Below, in pieces: positions 19,465 to 25,404 of a stretch of DNA of 54,146 nt. A program made the translations under genes and the position numbers. Each line of letters opens with the position of its first letter. Within the stretch, counting starts at the first letter, position 1. The stretch covers positions 1 through 54,146 of the forward strand of contig CACDOC010000005.1 in the NCBI GenBank assembly GCA_902554355.1, given 5' to 3'. Under the pieces are notes generated by a model that saw only the letters and a list, made by a program, of their open reading frames with translations, was not told where the DNA came from and did no database searches. The stretch is from an uncultured SAR86 cluster bacterium (GTDB lineage: Bacteria > Pseudomonadota > Gammaproteobacteria > Magnimaribacterales > Magnimaribacteraceae).

Positions 19465-20340
19465 ATGCAGCAAGTTTTTTCTTCTTGGAGAGGGTATCTG
19501 GAACTCACTAAGCCCGGAGTTCAGGCATTACTTTTTGTTTCCTGCATAAGCGGAATGTTAATAGCTTCTGATTTCAAACCCCCGTTAGAGGTTTTTGTTT
19601 TTGGACTTTTAGGAGTAAGTTTTTTAGCTGCATCTTCGGCAGTGATTAATCATATCTTTGATCAAAATATAGATGCCAAAATGGAAAGAACTTCCTCAAG
19701 ACCAATAGTGGTAGGCGCAATAAGCAACAAGCAGGCCACGATATTTTCCATTATTCTTTATGTGTTAGGTTCATGGATGCTTCTGGTCTATGCCAATTCC
19801 TTAACTTGGGTATTAACAACTTTAACTTTTATTTTTTATGGCTTTATCTATACAAGATATTTGAAGTTTATGACCAGTCAGAACATTGTTATAGGTGGAT
19901 TGGCAGGGGCCATGCCTCCACTTTTAGGGTGGACAGCTGTTTCTAATACGGTCGAGCCCAATGCACTGTTATTGGTGTTAATTGTAATGGTTTGGACTCC
20001 TCCTCACTTTTGGGCTTTAGCCGTGCATAGAGTCGAGGATTATGCAGAAGCCTCTGTACCCATGCTTCCAGTTCAAAAGGGAGTAGATTTCACGAAACAG
20101 CATATTCTCTTATATACGGTACTGTTATTTGTTTGTTCAATGCTTCCTTTCTCTGTGGGCATGTTTAACGAACTTTATTTAATTTCAGCAGCTATTTTGG
20201 GTTCAATTTTTCTTTATTACTCCATAAGATTGTTTAGGGATAAAACAAATTCATATGCCATGCCTACCTTCGCTTATTCTTTAATTTATTTAGCGCTTCT
20301 TTTTGCAGCCATGTTGTTAGACCATTACATGTACTTATGA
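19465..20340 (+). CDS. cyoE: Protoheme IX farnesyltransferase (heme O synthase)
   Basis: Membrane prenyltransferase of the UbiA superfamily making heme O from protoheme and farnesyl diphosphate. The 291-residue protein starts with the family pattern YLELTKPGVQALL. The diphosphate/Mg motif NHIFDQNIDAKMERTSSRP (NxxxDxxxD) and the second loop WTPPHFWALAVHRVEDYA are present. It supplies CtaA with substrate; the name ctaB is equally used. The last codon overlaps the sco start by four bases (ATGA). Confidence 0.95.
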   Translation: MQQVFSSWRGYLELTKPGVQALLFVSCISGMLIASDFKPPLEVFVFGLLGVSFLAASSAVINHIFDQNIDAKMERTSSRPIVVGAISNKQATIFSIILYVLGSWMLLVYANSLTWVLTTLTFIFYGFIYTRYLKFMTSQNIVIGGLAGAMPPLLGWTAVSNTVEPNALLLVLIVMVWTPPHFWALAVHRVEDYAEASVPMLPVQKGVDFTKQHILLYTVLLFVCSMLPFSVGMFNELYLISAAILGSIFLYYSIRLFRDKTNSYAMPTFAYSLIYLALLFAAMLLDHYMYL

Positions 20341-20963
20341 ATAAAGGCATTGCTTGGACGGTTCTTAGCTGCATAGCTTTTATGGCAATTATATTGTCTC
20401 TGTTTATTTCGAGAATGAATACAACCAGAGAACTAACCGAGCAAGAATACAAAGATTTAGGTGCTTATTTTATTAACCCGCCAAGACAATTAACCGGGTT
20501 TCAAATGACTAATGATCAGAACAAGGATTTTGATATCATTGATTTTGAGGGGCAATGGAATCTCCTCTTTTTCGGATTCACCTTCTGTCCTGATATTTGC
20601 CCTCTCACCATGAAGCAACTGTCCATTGTAAAAGAGGGGCTGAAAGCAGAAGCAAATAAAATAAACTTCTATCTAGTTACGGTTGATCCCGACAGGGATA
20701 GCCCAGCAAACTTAAGAACATATTTAGATAATTTTGATAATGAATTCATAGGACTGACTGGCGAAATAGACCAAATTTATAAATTTAGCACTCAAGTCAA
20801 TGCTCCCTTTTTTCCTGTGGTAAACAGTAAAGAAAAAAATTACACCGTGGATCATTCAGGAAGCTTAGTTTTAATTAACCCAGAAGGCGATTATGCTGGC
20901 TTTTTTAGAGCACCTCATGATCAGGTGAAGATCTTAAAGGCGCTTGATTCTTTATTAAATTAA
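20337..20963 (+). CDS. Sco1/SenC/PrrC copper chaperone
   Basis: Membrane-anchored thioredoxin-fold protein loading copper into the CuA centre of CoxB. The 208-residue protein has an N-terminal anchor (about 7-25). Its copper motif CPDIC is at residues 84-88 within FFGFTFCPDICPLTMKQL, and the third ligand His173 is in YTVDHSGSLVLI. The TVDPDRDSP segment is also conserved in the family. It ends the cox assembly run; the next gene follows after 16 bases. Confidence 0.95.
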   Translation: MNKGIAWTVLSCIAFMAIILSLFISRMNTTRELTEQEYKDLGAYFINPPRQLTGFQMTNDQNKDFDIIDFEGQWNLLFFGFTFCPDICPLTMKQLSIVKEGLKAEANKINFYLVTVDPDRDSPANLRTYLDNFDNEFIGLTGEIDQIYKFSTQVNAPFFPVVNSKEKNYTVDHSGSLVLINPEGDYAGFFRAPHDQVKILKALDSLLN

Positions 20964-20979: not shown

Positions 20980-21255
20980 GTGAGACTCAAAAGCAACAAA
21001 ATCTTATTATTATTTGCACTGTTATCTTTATCAGGTCTTGCAGCTGATCCTTTAATCCACGCATTCGAAAGTGACGTTGAATATTCAAGTTCGGAATGCC
21101 AATTGTGTCAGACTGAAATAGCTGATACTTTAGAAGAGGATCTCCGTGAAGTCGCAGCTTCGTTTAAACAAGCTGAATTACTTTTAGAACAATTACAACT
21201 ATCTTTCCCTTTAACAGGGTTTCAAACACGCGCACCTCCTTATCTTAAATTTTAA
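20980..21255 (+). CDS. Small exported CxxC protein upstream of the metal TonB receptor
   Basis: I do not recognise a named family. The 91-residue product starts with GTG and has a signal peptide (KILLLFALLSLSGLAA, about 7-22). The mature part contains a CQLC pair at residues 40-43, an acidic helix-forming middle, and the end TGFQTRAPPYLKF. Short periplasmic proteins ending in RAPP or RGPP are often found just before TonB receptors for metals, which fits the receptor 36 bases downstream. A periplasmic metal-binding or receptor-associated role is inference. It may be cotranscribed with sco. Confidence 0.7.
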   Translation: MRLKSNKILLLFALLSLSGLAADPLIHAFESDVEYSSSECQLCQTEIADTLEEDLREVAASFKQAELLLEQLQLSFPLTGFQTRAPPYLKF

Positions 21256-21291
21256 GTAGTAACTTTTAATTTAATTTTTTAAGGAGTAAAC

Positions 21292-23565
21292 ATGAAAGTA
21301 TTCTTTTATGGGCTCATGGCGATGAGCTTAGTATTAATACAATATATAAATGCAGACGAACCTTCTCCAACAAGCAATGAAAAAGTTGAAGAGGTTGTTG
21401 TTACGGCTTCCTTTATTGACCTCAGCAAAAGCCAAATAGAAGGCACATTGCATGTGGTTGCTGGTGAAGACGTTACAAATAGCCCTACTCAAAGCTTGGG
21501 AGAAATAATAGATAATTTACTGGGAGTTTCATCTACTGACTATGGTGCGGCAGTGGGACAACCTGTAATAAGAGGCATGTCAGGATCTGGCAGAGTTAAA
21601 GTTCTTAACAATGGAATGAATAGTGCTGATGTATCAGGGATAGGAGCTGACCATATTAATGACATATGCCTTAATGAAATACAGCAGATAGAAGTAGTCC
21701 GAGGGCCTGCTTCTTTGCTTTATTCGAATGGTGCAATAGGTGGGATTGTAAACATTGTAGATGAAGCAATTCCTTCAACTGATCTGGAAACTTATATGAG
21801 AATAGGCCTAGAAACCCAATCAGTTAATGATGGAGATTCTGTTCATTTCTCAACTGGCTCTAATCTTGGAGGAGTAAATCTAACTTTTTCTGCAAAAGAT
21901 TCGCAATTTGGAAATTACGATATACCCAACGGTGCCATTATTCATTTAGAAGAGCATGATGATCACGAAGATGAAGATCATGCCGAGGAAGAGCACGAAG
22001 AAGGACACGAAGAAAATCTTGGATTTCTTGCGAATTCTGATTATGAACAAGAAACTTATAGGCTCGGTTTATCCAAAGTATCTGATTGGGGTTACATAGG
22101 AGCCTCTTTTAGAAGCGTAGAAAGCACCTATGGTATTCCTTTTCATGGTGAGGAACATGGACATGAAGAGCATGGACACGAAGAACACGAAGACGAGGAA
22201 GAGGAACATGATGAGCACGAAGGTGAAAGAATCTTTTCAGCTACCGATTCTGATGTCTTTGATTTGAAGGGCTCTTTTAACTTTGATAATGGTTTTATTC
22301 AAAATGCTGATTTTTTCTTAAGAGACTCTGATTACTCATTAACTGAGCAACACGCAGAAGAGGCCCATGAAGACGAGCATGAAGACGAGCATGAAGATGA
22401 GCATGAGGGTCACTCAGAAGGTCCCACAACTTTTAGCAATGACGCTCAAGAGTATGGTGCTACTTTTAATCTAAGCGCCATGAATAACTTAGACCAAAAG
22501 ATTGCAATAAAATCTTTAAGTGAAGAAATATCTATACTTGGCGCTGAAGCATTTATGCTTCCTGCGGACAGTGATGAAGTTACATTTGGTTATTATGCAA
22601 GCACAGATACGCCTTTCGGAAAGGTTGACCTTGGTGTTAGATATGACCGAATTTCTAGAGAAGGTTCAGTTATGCACGAAGAAGAGCATGACGAGCATGA
22701 GCATGAAGACGAGCATGAAGATGAGCATGAAGGCGAGCATGAAGCAGAGATTGATTACTTTGATAGAGATATAAACAGCACAAGCTATTCTTTAGCTCTC
22801 TCAAATGATCTTTCTGAAAACCTTTCCTACAATCTTGGTGCCTCTTATTTAGAAAGGGCACCTACATCAGTAGAACTTTTCATGAACGGAGCTCACCTAG
22901 CTACAGGAAGATTCGAAGTTGGAAATACTGCTTTAGAAACAGAAGAAGCTACTAATTATGATTTCACTTTAAATTATGAAAATGACAACTTCTTCGCATC
23001 ATTCACTTACTTTAGTAATGATATTGACAACTATATTTATCTGCAGGATGAATCTGAAGAGGAGCATGAAGAGCATGAAGAAGAAGGCGAGCACCATGCT
23101 GGTTTAATTCTTGCAAACTATCTGCAAAAAGATGCTGAATTAAATGGTTTCGAATGGGAGATAGGAAGTTCATTTGGCTTCATCAATGGCGACATGACTT
23201 TATCAGCCGGATATGATTATGTTAGAGCCGAGTTCACTGATGGAACAAATATTCCTAGAATCGCCCCTAGAAGAGCTATTTATTCTGCGGAATATGTTGA
23301 AGGAGATCTAAAAGCATTGCTAGCTTACAAGGACGTTAGTGAACAGCTCAACGTGTCTGAAGGTGAAACGCCAACAGCGGGCTATAAGATGCTGGATTTG
23401 AGAGTGACGAAAACTTTTGATATGGGAAATGACGGGTCTATTGACCTTTCAATTTTCGGAACAAACTTACTCGATGAAAAAGCTAGAAATCATACTTCAT
23501 TTGTTAAGAATGAGGTCCCTCTAGCTGGAAGAAATATTGGAGCTAAATTGGTCTATAACTTCTAG
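21292..23565 (+). CDS. TonB-dependent outer-membrane receptor with His/acid-rich loops (ZnuD-like)
   Basis: Outer-membrane transporter of 757 residues. A signal peptide (about 1-21) is followed by a TonB box (KVEEVVVTAS, 31-40). The plug domain includes QPVIRGMSGSGRVKVLNNG and IEVVRGPASLLYSNGAIGG, and the 22-strand barrel ends in Phe. Five insertions are almost pure His/Glu/Asp, at about residues 218-241, 284-312, 353-375, 461-486 and 588-603, as in zinc receptors such as ZnuD. Substrate zinc or another divalent metal is inferred from those loops and from a MerC-like gene nearby. AAGGAG lies 6 bases before the ATG. No Zur or Fur box could be recognised upstream. Confidence 0.93.
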   Translation: MKVFFYGLMAMSLVLIQYINADEPSPTSNEKVEEVVVTASFIDLSKSQIEGTLHVVAGEDVTNSPTQSLGEIIDNLLGVSSTDYGAAVGQPVIRGMSGSGRVKVLNNGMNSADVSGIGADHINDICLNEIQQIEVVRGPASLLYSNGAIGGIVNIVDEAIPSTDLETYMRIGLETQSVNDGDSVHFSTGSNLGGVNLTFSAKDSQFGNYDIPNGAIIHLEEHDDHEDEDHAEEEHEEGHEENLGFLANSDYEQETYRLGLSKVSDWGYIGASFRSVESTYGIPFHGEEHGHEEHGHEEHEDEEEEHDEHEGERIFSATDSDVFDLKGSFNFDNGFIQNADFFLRDSDYSLTEQHAEEAHEDEHEDEHEDEHEGHSEGPTTFSNDAQEYGATFNLSAMNNLDQKIAIKSLSEEISILGAEAFMLPADSDEVTFGYYASTDTPFGKVDLGVRYDRISREGSVMHEEEHDEHEHEDEHEDEHEGEHEAEIDYFDRDINSTSYSLALSNDLSENLSYNLGASYLERAPTSVELFMNGAHLATGRFEVGNTALETEEATNYDFTLNYENDNFFASFTYFSNDIDNYIYLQDESEEEHEEHEEEGEHHAGLILANYLQKDAELNGFEWEIGSSFGFINGDMTLSAGYDYVRAEFTDGTNIPRIAPRRAIYSAEYVEGDLKALLAYKDVSEQLNVSEGETPTAGYKMLDLRVTKTFDMGNDGSIDLSIFGTNLLDEKARNHTSFVKNEVPLAGRNIGAKLVYNF
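22369..22404 (+). repeat. 12-bp tandem repeat in a TonB receptor loop
   Basis: Three direct copies of GAAGACGAGCAT (last copy with one T for C) encode Glu-Asp-Glu-His units in the third His/acid-rich loop. Confidence 0.85.
22678..22746 (+). repeat. Second block of 9/12-bp His-Glu repeats in the TonB receptor
   Basis: Units of GAAGAGCAT, GACGAGCAT and GAAGACGAGCAT alternate through the fourth loop. The 12-mer GAAGACGAGCAT-GAAGATGAGCAT is identical to that of the block about 300 bases upstream. Confidence 0.8.
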
Positions 23566-23593
23566 GCCTTTAGACTAAATATTTCGTTAAATA

Positions 23594-23623
23594 AACTTAC
23601 TTAACCCCCATATAAAGTAAGTT
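23594..23623. terminator. First of two hairpins after the TonB receptor
   Basis: AACTTACTT (23594-23602) and AAGTAAGTT (23615-23623) form a perfect 9-bp stem with a 12-base loop. No U-run follows directly, so alone it is a weak terminator; it stands 7 bases before a stronger hairpin. Confidence 0.4.
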
Positions 23624-23630
23624 AAAACAA

Positions 23631-23661
23631 AAAGGCCAGGCCTAACAAAAGCCTGGCCTTT
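23631..23661. terminator. Bidirectional rho-independent terminator
   Basis: AAAGGCCAGGC (23631-23641) pairs perfectly with GCCTGGCCTTT (23651-23661), an 11-bp GC-rich stem with a 9-base loop. An A-run lies before it and a T-run after it. It lies between the convergent TonB receptor (+) and doxX (-) genes and can serve both. Confidence 0.88.
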
Positions 23662-23673
23662 ATTGTATAAATT

Positions 23674-24117
23674 CTATTTGTTGCCTTTGATGGCAAAATA
23701 GCCACCGACCAGTATTAAGAATAACTGTTCACTGGCGAACAAAACTGATCCTCTTTCTCCAAAGAATATTCCCCAATTTGAGTGAGCTATTATCATTGCC
23801 CATATCATTATGAAAAGGACAGCTCCTCCAGATAATCTTGTGATTAAATGACCGGCTTGTTCGGCTCTGCTAGCTATCAAGCCGCCGACTATTATTCCTA
23901 TGCCGGCTAACATCTCTCCCCAAGCAACCATATGTGCCATTGCTCCAGCTGCGGGAACGCCCTTTGATGCAAGCCATCCTACGAAACCTTCACCGATAGG
24001 CATCTTTCCGTAACCGTGTAAGAAAAAGGAAATTCCTAAGCCTATTCTCAAGAGCCATTCAGCCAATCCAGAAATAGGCCTTGCTATGTTATCCAGCGCT
24101 TCGTTAATTTTATCCAT
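23674..24117 (-). CDS. DoxX family membrane protein
   Basis: A 147-residue membrane protein with four helices. The first segment, LAEWLLRIGLGISFFLHGYGKM, is typical of DoxX/DoxD-like proteins (LLRxxLGxxFxxHGxxKL). A second pattern, WGEMLAGIGIIVGGL, fits the second helix. The family is linked loosely to redox stress; no activity can be assigned. It ends at the bidirectional terminator and follows the Bax-inhibitor-like gene by 3 bases, so the two are probably cotranscribed. Confidence 0.83.
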   Translation of the reverse strand: MDKINEALDNIARPISGLAEWLLRIGLGISFFLHGYGKMPIGEGFVGWLASKGVPAAGAMAHMVAWGEMLAGIGIIVGGLIASRAEQAGHLITRLSGGAVLFIMIWAMIIAHSNWGIFFGERGSVLFASEQLFLILVGGYFAIKGNK

Positions 24118-24120
24118 GTT

Positions 24121-24960
24121 TTACCCCATTGCTTCTAATAATTCTAATAATAAGTTTATAACATCAAGATAGATAGAAAAACCTATATTAAATGCTGTGT
24201 TCCAGTCGTTTATTCCGTTTGCAGAAGCTTGTTCTAGTCTGTAAAAATCATATAGTAAATAGCCTATAAAAATAATAGAACCAAAAAATCCCATTATTCT
24301 TCTAGAAACAGATGTGAAATTTATGAATATATTAAGAAGGTTCCAAATTACTAAGACAAACAACGGGATGATAAGGATATAGCCCAAAGAGGAAAAATCT
24401 ATGCCACTATAAATTCCAATTATTGCGGTCAAGAAGGTTATAAAGACAGTAAGTTTTAAAATTCTTAAACCATCATTTTCATCCATTCCAATCATAATCG
24501 CTCCAAGAATCGGTCCAAAACACATGCTGGCAACAGAGAGCACAATCATTTTAATGAAAATAGAATAATCTGTTGTAGAAATAATAGCTGTGGTACATAG
24601 GGCAATAAACCAGATAACGGATAAGTTAAAAAGTAACTTCCTCAATGGAGGCTTTTTATACTCCATCTCTATTTCAAGGTCTTTTTTGCGCTTCTTATAA
24701 GCGGATTTATCTTTGTAAAAAAGGGCATTTAATTCCGTTTCCTCTTTAAAGACCCACTTGTCATAGGCTTCTTCCTCTGCTGAAAATAAATCGAGCTCCC
24801 CGTTTTTGTTGTATCGTTTCTCAAAAACAGCACCAAAAAAAGGTTCACCAGCTAACGCGCACTCTCTAGCTCCTTGAATAAAGTGATAGCAAATCCCAAA
24901 TACTAGAGACAGTTGGCTCCCAAAAACAACAAAGGTTTTAAAGAATAAAGAAGTTTCCAT
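24121..24960 (-). CDS. Bax inhibitor-1-like membrane protein with charged N-terminal domain
   Basis: A 279-residue protein. The C-terminal part from about residue 105 holds six or seven hydrophobic helices and ends FNIGFSIYLDVINLLLELLE. This matches the BI-1/YccA family C-terminus (LYLDxINLFLxLL) with the preceding conserved Asp region YDFYRLEQ. Before it lies a first helix (about 8-26) and then a soluble, highly charged stretch (about 40-100, rich in Lys/Glu/Asp/Tyr) not found in YccA. BI-1 proteins act as pH-sensitive calcium leak channels or modulators of membrane protease FtsH in bacteria. Which applies here is unknown. The overall match is weak except at the C-terminus. Confidence 0.6.
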   Translation of the reverse strand: METSLFFKTFVVFGSQLSLVFGICYHFIQGARECALAGEPFFGAVFEKRYNKNGELDLFSAEEEAYDKWVFKEETELNALFYKDKSAYKKRKKDLEIEMEYKKPPLRKLLFNLSVIWFIALCTTAIISTTDYSIFIKMIVLSVASMCFGPILGAIMIGMDENDGLRILKLTVFITFLTAIIGIYSGIDFSSLGYILIIPLFVLVIWNLLNIFINFTSVSRRIMGFFGSIIFIGYLLYDFYRLEQASANGINDWNTAFNIGFSIYLDVINLLLELLEAMG

Positions 24961-24999
24961 ATCGGCTAAGAAGCATATACGAATTTAATATCAAAAGAA

Positions 25000-25015
25000 G
25001 TTTTTAATTAAAAAC
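25000..25015. terminator. Perfect AT palindrome after the merC-like gene
   Basis: GTTTTTAATTAAAAAC is a perfect 16-base palindrome starting 6 bases beyond the merC-like stop on the minus strand. It could fold into a weak hairpin terminator or bind a dimeric protein; AT-only palindromes also arise by chance. Confidence 0.3.
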
Positions 25016-25020
25016 AAATT

Positions 25021-25404
25021 TTAGTCATGACAAGAGCAATCTAACTCTTTGCAGGCTTGATGGTTCTTAAAGTGAGCATAGACAACTAAGATCGAGCCCA
25101 ATAAAGTTAAAGTTTTTTCTCCAAGCTCTCCTAAAATTGACTCTCCCAAAGTAACCGCTAGAAGTAAAGTAAAAAGGCCAAAAGAACCAGCTGCCAATAA
25201 ATAAGTAGTTTTATGGCTTATGAAGCCAGAGATTAGTGCATATAGACTAATAGGAATAGCTACAAACAAAATTAGGTAGTGTACAGACTCATTATCTAAA
25301 GAGACTGAAAACAGTCCAGATGTTAACAGGACAAAGGCTGGGCTGAAGAAGCAATGAATCGCACAGACAGATGATAATGTCATTGCAAACTTATCGCTAA
25401 TCAA
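25021..25404 (-). CDS. MerC domain-containing membrane protein
   Basis: A 127-residue protein with four hydrophobic helices. The N-terminal pattern DKFAMTLSSVCAIHCFFSPAFVLL matches the MerC family (DKxAxxxSxLCxxHCxxxP), where the Cys/His pair binds metal in the membrane. The C-terminus NHQACKELDCSCHD adds three Cys and two His. Free-standing MerC proteins occur with zinc-responsive genes in marine bacteria, so metal uptake linked to the TonB receptor is more likely than mercury resistance; no merR, merT or merA is seen. The frame starts at TTG; ATG at 25383 would cut into the family motif. Confidence 0.8.
   Translation of the reverse strand: MISDKFAMTLSSVCAIHCFFSPAFVLLTSGLFSVSLDNESVHYLILFVAIPISLYALISGFISHKTTYLLAAGSFGLFTLLLAVTLGESILGELGEKTLTLLGSILVVYAHFKNHQACKELDCSCHD

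Follow-up and report, generated by a model that had tools for sequence, protein, structure and literature searches.

A candidate zinc acquisition set in SAR86 bacteria: a ZnuD-like receptor, a small CxxC protein and a MerC-family protein

How does zinc enter the cells of SAR86, a widespread group of surface-ocean bacteria with small genomes? When 61 genomes of the SAR86 order (26 of them near complete) were searched, ZnuA was found in none and ZIP in none; the same searches were positive for 11 and 8, respectively, of 14 control genomes. These importer searches covered ZnuA, ZIP and Nramp. The zinc route of SAR86 is thus a question, and a set of three genes on contig C5 of a SAR86-order genome (1.17 Mb, 51% complete) makes it testable. 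The whole contig, 54,146 bases, was analysed and is referred to as the window. An initial annotation of the window had read a small CxxC protein, a TonB receptor and a MerC-like protein as a zinc or divalent-metal acquisition set. The coordinates of all three were confirmed (Table 1), and the reading is supported, the receptor being ZnuD-like with conserved ligands and the MerC protein belonging to a branch tied to Zur.

We propose, with a probability of roughly two in three, that the set acquires zinc without ZnuABC: the receptor captures the metal, the CxxC protein handles it in the periplasm, and MerC carries it inward. The link of the set to zinc is strong; that MerC transports zinc inward is our reading of its relatives. 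In the first step, Zn2+ would be captured by the acidic and histidine-bearing loops of the receptor together with a four-ligand site between plug and barrel, and would pass the outer membrane with TonB energy, by analogy with ZnuD. In the second, the exported H...CxxC...RAPP protein would receive or buffer periplasmic Zn2+, a role suggested by the observed coupling of the genes. In the third, the CxxHC MerC, a small helical membrane protein in which Cys14, His17, Cys18, His42, His64 and His111 are conserved, would take the part of ZnuABC or ZIP and bring Zn2+ into the cytoplasm. This last step is modelled on the mercury MerC, described as carrying Hg2+, and on a zinc regulon seen by gene context in relatives.

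Such a set could explain the zinc supply of bacteria that lack the usual inner-membrane zinc pumps. We give even odds to a broader statement, namely that CxxHC MerC is a minimal (~130 aa) inner-membrane zinc importer, Zur-controlled in many gammaproteobacteria, and that, acting with a ZnuD-like receptor and a dedicated CxxC protein, it takes the place of ZnuABC and ZIP throughout the SAR86 order. If this is true, much of the marine 'mercury resistance' surveyed by the MerC family would be zinc uptake. The parts are of known kinds; the combination, and the assignment of CxxHC MerC to zinc, were not found in the accessible parts of the open-access literature searched. That literature, subscription papers lying outside the search, likewise yielded no link between MerC and Zur in its accessible parts. 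The whole word MerC does not occur in PMC11481552, and in the main texts of PMC6103462 and PMC2770081, as far as these were available, the string 'merc' occurs only in the name Merchant.

The ZnuD-like receptor and the small CxxC protein

When the receptor was compared with the sequences of the PDB, ZnuD ranked first (122.7 bits), followed by the colicin I receptor (48.1). A 30-row profile of the receptor family gave 363.7 bits for ZnuD, the sole solved chain at E <= 1e-50. Against the NCBIfam model of ZnuD (NF038289) the receptor scored 213.2 bits, below the curated cut-off of 950; hence it is named ZnuD-like and not ZnuD itself. The AlphaFold model of the receptor (mean pLDDT 74.6, the loops being of low confidence) found its best fold match in ZnuD 4rdt, with a Z of 46.6 and an rmsd of 1.8 over 586 residues.

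The zinc ligands of ZnuD are given in the available text of PMC6288298 as Asp99, His100, Glu340 and His499. In the family-profile alignment their counterparts in the receptor are D120, H121, E352 and H535, a mapping that uses a chain numbering offset of 14 counted from the alignment. Their conservation (Table 1) and the fold match favour zinc over copper, iron or vitamin B12. The five His/Asp/Glu loops of the initial annotation were recovered as five long runs, each in a predicted extracellular loop of the AlphaFold model; the prediction follows from the odd-even strand pairs of TonB-receptor topology. The window receptor thus has in common with ZnuD of Neisseria (NF038289; PDB 4rdr, 4rdt, 4rvw) the plug-and-barrel fold and four aligned zinc ligands. 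It differs in being only 26% identical over the fold alignment, in reaching 213 of 950 bits, in its very long His/Asp/Glu runs, and in belonging to an order without a ZnuA find. The receptor was found in 51 of the 61 order genomes, including 25 of the 26 near-complete ones.

A second, larger TonB receptor (~865 aa) often lies 3' of the ZnuD-like receptor in SAR86 families f2 and f4 (L098, L099, L101, L105, L106, L109, L122). At L109 the MerC gene stands between the two receptors; at L122, L294, L303, L345 and L346 it is directly 3' of the second one. At L307:3748-5897 the ZnuD-like receptor upstream of MerC is split over several frames, from either a broken gene or assembly errors.

The small exported protein is tightly coupled to the receptor. 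Of 22 SAR86 neighbourhoods (the window, 20 receptor regions and one MerC region with the receptor in it), 21 have an open reading frame ending in RAPP immediately 5' of the receptor gene. All 17 rows of alignment A1 have H27, C43 and RAPP, and 16 have C40; the row without this first Cys of the CxxC motif is L021 (G055).

A second profile, A2, was made by dropping the A1 rows L012, L018 and L021 and taking three rows from L200, L216 and L218. At E <= 0.01 it matched 29 of 370 gammaproteobacterial genomes, 24 of them outside the SAR86 order. Three of the 25 outside loci (L241–L243) are the sources of the three added A2 rows, so their recovery is not independent and 22 independent loci remain. 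Among the 25, a Zur box with at most one mismatch was present at four (L241, L247, L256, L257), a ZnuD-like receptor at four (L241, L247, L251, L267), and MerC beside the CxxC gene at two (L242, L243). At L247 and L256 the neighbours of the CxxC gene include zur, a ZnuA match and a Zur box.

The border of the CxxC family is not sharp, since many weaker matches look DUF2946-type and lie upstream of other outer-membrane-like genes. Like the DUF2946 proteins, which are small exported Cys proteins, the window protein is small and exported, has an H...CxxC region and ends in R-x-P-P. In contrast to them, its gene is coupled to a ZnuD-like receptor, and it gave no match to Pfam DUF2946 (PF11162) up to E 1. 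The L216 homologue matched DUF2946 weakly (E 0.0069, below the cut-off).

The CxxHC branch of MerC

The window protein matched Pfam MerC (PF03203) with 87.2 bits, above the gathering cut-off of 27.6, and it carries Cys and His residues at both termini, as the initial annotation had described. In the 20 SAR86 rows of its tail, C118 is invariant and C123, C125 and H126 are conserved in at least 90%. MerC was present in 44 of the 61 order genomes and in 23 of the 26 near-complete ones.

A Pfam MerC search of the 370 gammaproteobacterial genomes matched 86. The strongest matches outside the order numbered 61, of which 60 were taken as class loci; one on a short contig (G103) was left out, and ~40 weaker matches (E > 1.4e-17) lie outside the class set. 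A MerC profile made from SAR86 only, free of any gene context, selected 42 of the 60 class loci, which we call zinc-type; the other 18 are mercury-type. The CxxHC motif was present in all 42 zinc-type loci and in none of the 18 mercury-type ones. In alignment A3 (61 rows, leaving out the SAR86 CxxNC rows L111, L123 and L128 and the class row L181, which is counted among the 42) C14, H17, C18, P22, H111 and N114 are invariant. It may be noted that the MerC of SAR86 genus g12 (L111, L123, L128) carries CxxNC instead of CxxHC. In a MerC tree that is unrooted, built on few columns and open at many forks, a branch supported at 100/100 sets the 18 mercury-type rows apart from the rest, and the window protein lies with the CxxHC rows. 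The mercury-type rows differ from the CxxHC rows at Cys14, His17 and His111.

The two types also differ in their gene context. A Zur box (TGTTATNNNATAACA-type, no more than one mismatch, in the 300 bp preceding MerC or the operon head) was present at 17 of the 42 CxxHC loci and at 0 of the 18 mercury-type loci; the reversed-pattern control gave 1/42. The search for Zur boxes, a check suggested in the initial annotation, was thus positive beyond the order. The zur gene itself lies within 2.5 kb at 16/42 CxxHC loci, and for all 16 genes a two-row Zur profile scored above the Fur profile. A ZnuD-like receptor lies within the same distance at 6/42, and at least one of these three zinc signs was present at 28/42. 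Neither zur nor the receptor, nor any of the three signs, was seen at a mercury-type locus (0/18 each).

Some of these loci hold longer runs. In the Pfam scan of selected neighbours, L179 reads box-DUF1826-ZrgA-zur-MerC-PRA-CH and L190 reads box-DUF1826-MerC. At L193 a perfect box is followed by a 95-aa CobW-type fragment and then MerC. At L200 a ZrgA-zur-MerC-PRA-CH run is accompanied, 3 kb on, by a separate box-CxxC-receptor unit. The walk to the operon head was mechanical, so that L200 was scored boxless despite a perfect box 574 bp ahead of the ZrgA-zur-MerC run. The position of MerC in runs of zinc-shortage genes argues for uptake and not efflux.

These runs resemble the known Zur-controlled operons of ZrgA, COG0523/CobW and DUF1826, as CxxHC MerC stands with ZrgA, zur and DUF1826 and, at L193, with the CobW-type fragment. 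DUF1826 and COG0523 occur in Zur-regulated clusters according to the accessible text of PMC2770081, and TonB receptors are listed in the Zur-regulon table in the accessible portion of PMC6103462. In contrast to those operons, MerC is not named as a member in the available parts of the open-access literature searched, and most SAR86 genomes searched show only Fur.

The window protein belongs to the same Pfam family as the MerC of mercury operons and has Cys18, Pro22, His64 and Gly76 in common with it. It differs in the CxxHC motif, the conserved His42 and His111, the Cys/His tail and its separate branch, and Zur and zinc genes lie near the CxxHC branch instead of merA. A family annotated as mercury resistance thereby gains a predicted zinc role and a motif by which the 60 class loci divide into the two branches, a result of importance to gene surveys and Zur regulon maps.

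The initial annotation had named co-occurrence of the three families as a check, and they were indeed found together. The CxxC–receptor coupling is described above. Named MerC loci, which partly repeat the G-series genomes, number 80, of which 55 are titled SAR86. In 16 of the 80 the receptor and MerC are adjacent and co-directional, receptor first, with 45 to 394 bp between the two genes. The CxxC protein precedes the receptor in 11 of these 16. Of the other five, four are cut by the contig end and L307 has its receptor in pieces. By title the 11 loci are SAR86 (5), Woeseiaceae (3), Hellea (2) and uncultured gamma proteobacterium (1); in the three Woeseiaceae-titled ones the receptor–MerC gap is 260 to 388 bp. 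In four more named loci the second receptor is directly upstream of MerC. Elsewhere in SAR86 genomes MerC lies at many different places. The receptor–MerC link is recurrent but not constant.

Six records titled as Alphaproteobacteria (L284–L286, L290, L291, L314; Hellea, Rhodospirillaceae, OCS116) hold a MerC 52–56% identical to that of the window. Two such records have the CxxC–receptor pair in front. Gene transfer or mis-binned contigs would account for the six records.

Zur in SAR86 and alternative explanations

Within SAR86 the search for Zur boxes suggested in the initial annotation was positive in part. Boxes were found at receptor, CxxC–receptor, MerC or MerC-like genes in Zur-bearing SAR86 genomes, and none near the window genes. 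FUR-family genes were found in 55 of the 61 order genomes, a second one above the cut-off only in G056 and G059, which belong to one genus. The second FUR protein of G056 gave ~100 bits with 7dh7 and with E. coli Zur 4mtd, against <40 with Fur chains. For both genomes the NCBIfam Zur model was the best match, with 122 and 106 bits against a cut-off of 167, and both proteins end in GxCxxC. The single-contig G056 (92% complete by estimate) has two perfect TGTTATNNNATAACA boxes, against an expectation of 0.37 given the dinucleotides in 43 kb of that genome. One is 5' of the receptor, and the other abuts the ATG of a MerC-like gene. This divergent gene (L137:1117-1606) lies just behind a tRNA-Leu, its box ending on the base that adjoins the ATG. 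In G059 a one-mismatch box stands just 5' of the CxxC gene. Genome-wide, one-mismatch boxes are no commoner than matches to the reversed pattern (8 vs 11 in G056, 7 vs 7 in G059), and hence only perfect sites and sites at these genes were used.

Other loci gave a mixed picture. L282, L288, L289 and L295 have in common a two-mismatch palindrome ~20 bp upstream of MerC; Zur is present in three of their genomes (that of L289 being G059), while for L295 only Fur was found in 0.8 Mb. The Woeseiaceae-titled L273 combines a one-mismatch box with Zur. Five SAR86 loci with receptor–MerC order and no box (L276, L298, L299, L301, L310) come from genomes where only Fur was found. L286 has Zur, yet no box within two mismatches upstream of MerC, and L281 has a box, with no FUR-family gene found in its genome. 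The genomes of L312 and L336, titled Woeseiaceae, hold two further FUR-type genes. L327, L334 and L340 have in common a two-mismatch site that lies 262 bp 5' of MerC and was treated as chance. Simple Zur and Fur patterns were scanned upstream of 22 receptor, 23 MerC and 7 second-receptor genes. The Zur patterns recovered the site at the G056 receptor and, 5' of MerC in L115 and L129, two looser GTTA-TAAC matches; the Fur pattern gave no site in any of these upstream regions.

The window's genome, as far as it is complete (51%), yielded one FUR-family gene, best matched by Fur, and no Zur gene. No Zur box (GTTATNNNATAAC, at most one mismatch) was found near the three genes, the whole window having 2 such sites against 2.5 expected. 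Zinc-dependent induction need therefore not be expected there. Since only Fur was found in most SAR86 genomes searched, that of the window included, zinc probably does not control expression of the set in those genomes.

The absence of a nearby box in the window is one of several observations that weigh against our proposal. The window MerC is two genes from the receptor, with DoxX and Bax1-I between, and on the opposite strand, so the three genes are not one operon there. In G056, the boxed MerC-like gene is divergent (PF03203 21 bits, below the cut-off) and not an orthologue of the window MerC, the canonical MerC has no box at up to one mismatch, and the receptor lacks a CxxC gene, the one exception among the 22 neighbourhoods. 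All three zinc signs are absent from 14 of the 42 CxxHC loci. Foldseek with the MerC model gave no match at E <= 0.001; a structural aligner returned helical bundles (best Z 12.6), uninformative on function.

Three further observations of this kind bear on an explanation in which the set does serve zinc, with MerC as a starvation accessory (a sensor, a sparing factor or the partner of a transporter) and an Nramp-like or other carrier as the importer. ZnuA also occurs in 16 of the 35 CxxHC-MerC genomes outside the order, against 228 of 330 other genomes, and so MerC is not always a replacement of ZnuABC; the anticorrelation over the class is modest (Fisher p 0.008, uncorrected for relatedness). 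MerC is missing from 3 of the 26 near-complete SAR86 genomes and is therefore not the only way in. An Nramp-like protein scored above the cut-off in 24 of the 61 SAR86 genomes. However, Nramp was matched in only 9 of the 26 near-complete genomes and is thus not the general route, the Zur-boxed run of L179 places MerC with the uptake gene ZrgA, and the MerC of mer operons is described, in the accessible text of PMC12193353, as carrying Hg2+ inward. We consider an accessory MerC unlikely, while giving it real weight. In G059 an Nramp-like gene (G059:C1:8111-9196) lies ~1.6 kb upstream of the CxxC–receptor pair.

A less probable explanation holds that the CxxC–receptor pair imports copper for the adjoining cytochrome c oxidase and that MerC is unrelated. 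In the window's genus the pair is the tail of a cytochrome-oxidase assembly run, with the small protein gene 16 bp after SCO1 in the window, and it follows such a run in 6 of the 22 neighbourhoods, all from genera g1 and g6. Moreover, the copper transporter OprC is the second-best kind of fold match of the receptor model (Z 39.1, followed by haem and B12 transporters). Against this, other genes lie upstream of the pair in 16 of the 22 neighbourhoods, the TonB-copper model gave the receptor 37.9 bits compared with 213 for ZnuD, the four ZnuD zinc ligands are conserved, and relatives have Zur boxes. With the oxidase link kept in 6/22 and the zinc ligands conserved, copper for the oxidase was rejected as the principal explanation and appears improbable.

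That the window MerC is an ordinary mercury-resistance protein lying near the receptor by chance would fit the Pfam family name and the scattered positions of MerC in SAR86 genomes, but it is largely refuted by its place in the tree with the CxxHC rows and by gene context (merA motif at 0/42 CxxHC loci vs 11/18 mercury-type loci), and we hold it to be very improbable.

Gene layout in the window

The features of the zinc set and its immediate neighbours are collected in Table 1.

Table 1. Positions of the zinc set, its conserved sites and adjoining features in the window
Feature	Positions	Strand	Remarks
SCO1/SenC gene	20337..20963	+	context; cytochrome-oxidase assembly run; 16 bp upstream of small protein
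Small exported protein, 91 aa, GTG start	20980..21255	+	hydrophobic N-terminus, H27 ... C40-x-x-C43 ... C-terminal RAPP
ZnuD-like TonB-dependent receptor, 757 aa	21292..23565	+	profile, sequence and fold matches
Plug Asp120-His121	21649..21654	+	aligned with ZnuD Asp99-His100; at least 90% conserved, 30 rows
His/Asp/Glu run 1, residues 220-241	21949..22014	+	predicted extracellular loop, strands 3-4
His/Asp/Glu run 2, residues 285-312	22144..22227	+	predicted extracellular loop, strands 5-6
Glu352	22345..22347	+	aligned with ZnuD Glu340; invariant, 30 rows
His/Asp/Glu run 3, residues 354-377	22351..22422	+	predicted extracellular loop, strands 7-8
His/Asp/Glu run 4, residues 462-486	22675..22749	+	predicted extracellular loop, strands 11-12
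His535	22894..22896	+	aligned with ZnuD His499; at least 90% conserved, 30 rows
His/Asp/Glu run 5, residues 586-604	23047..23103	+	predicted extracellular loop, strands 15-16
Terminator-like hairpin, 13 pairs	23631..23661	-	flagged for minus strand; between convergent receptor and DoxX genes
DoxX-family gene	23674..24117	-	context, outside set
Bax1-I family gene	24121..24960	-	context, outside set
MerC-family membrane protein, CxxHC (zinc-linked) branch, 127 aa, TTG start	25021..25404	-	PF03203
Cys/His-rich MerC C-terminus: C118, C123, C125, H126	25027..25053	-	20 SAR86 rows
C14-x-x-H17-C18 motif, first helix of MerC	25351..25365	-	invariant in 61 A3 rows

The small protein and the receptor genes are separated by 36 bp. 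No mer gene was present among the eight window neighbours scanned by family profiles. The terminator that the initial annotation had placed between the receptor and the MerC side corresponds to the 13-pair terminator-like hairpin; such sites number 6 in the region, compared with 3.4 in shuffles. Known RNA families were represented in the window by one tRNA.

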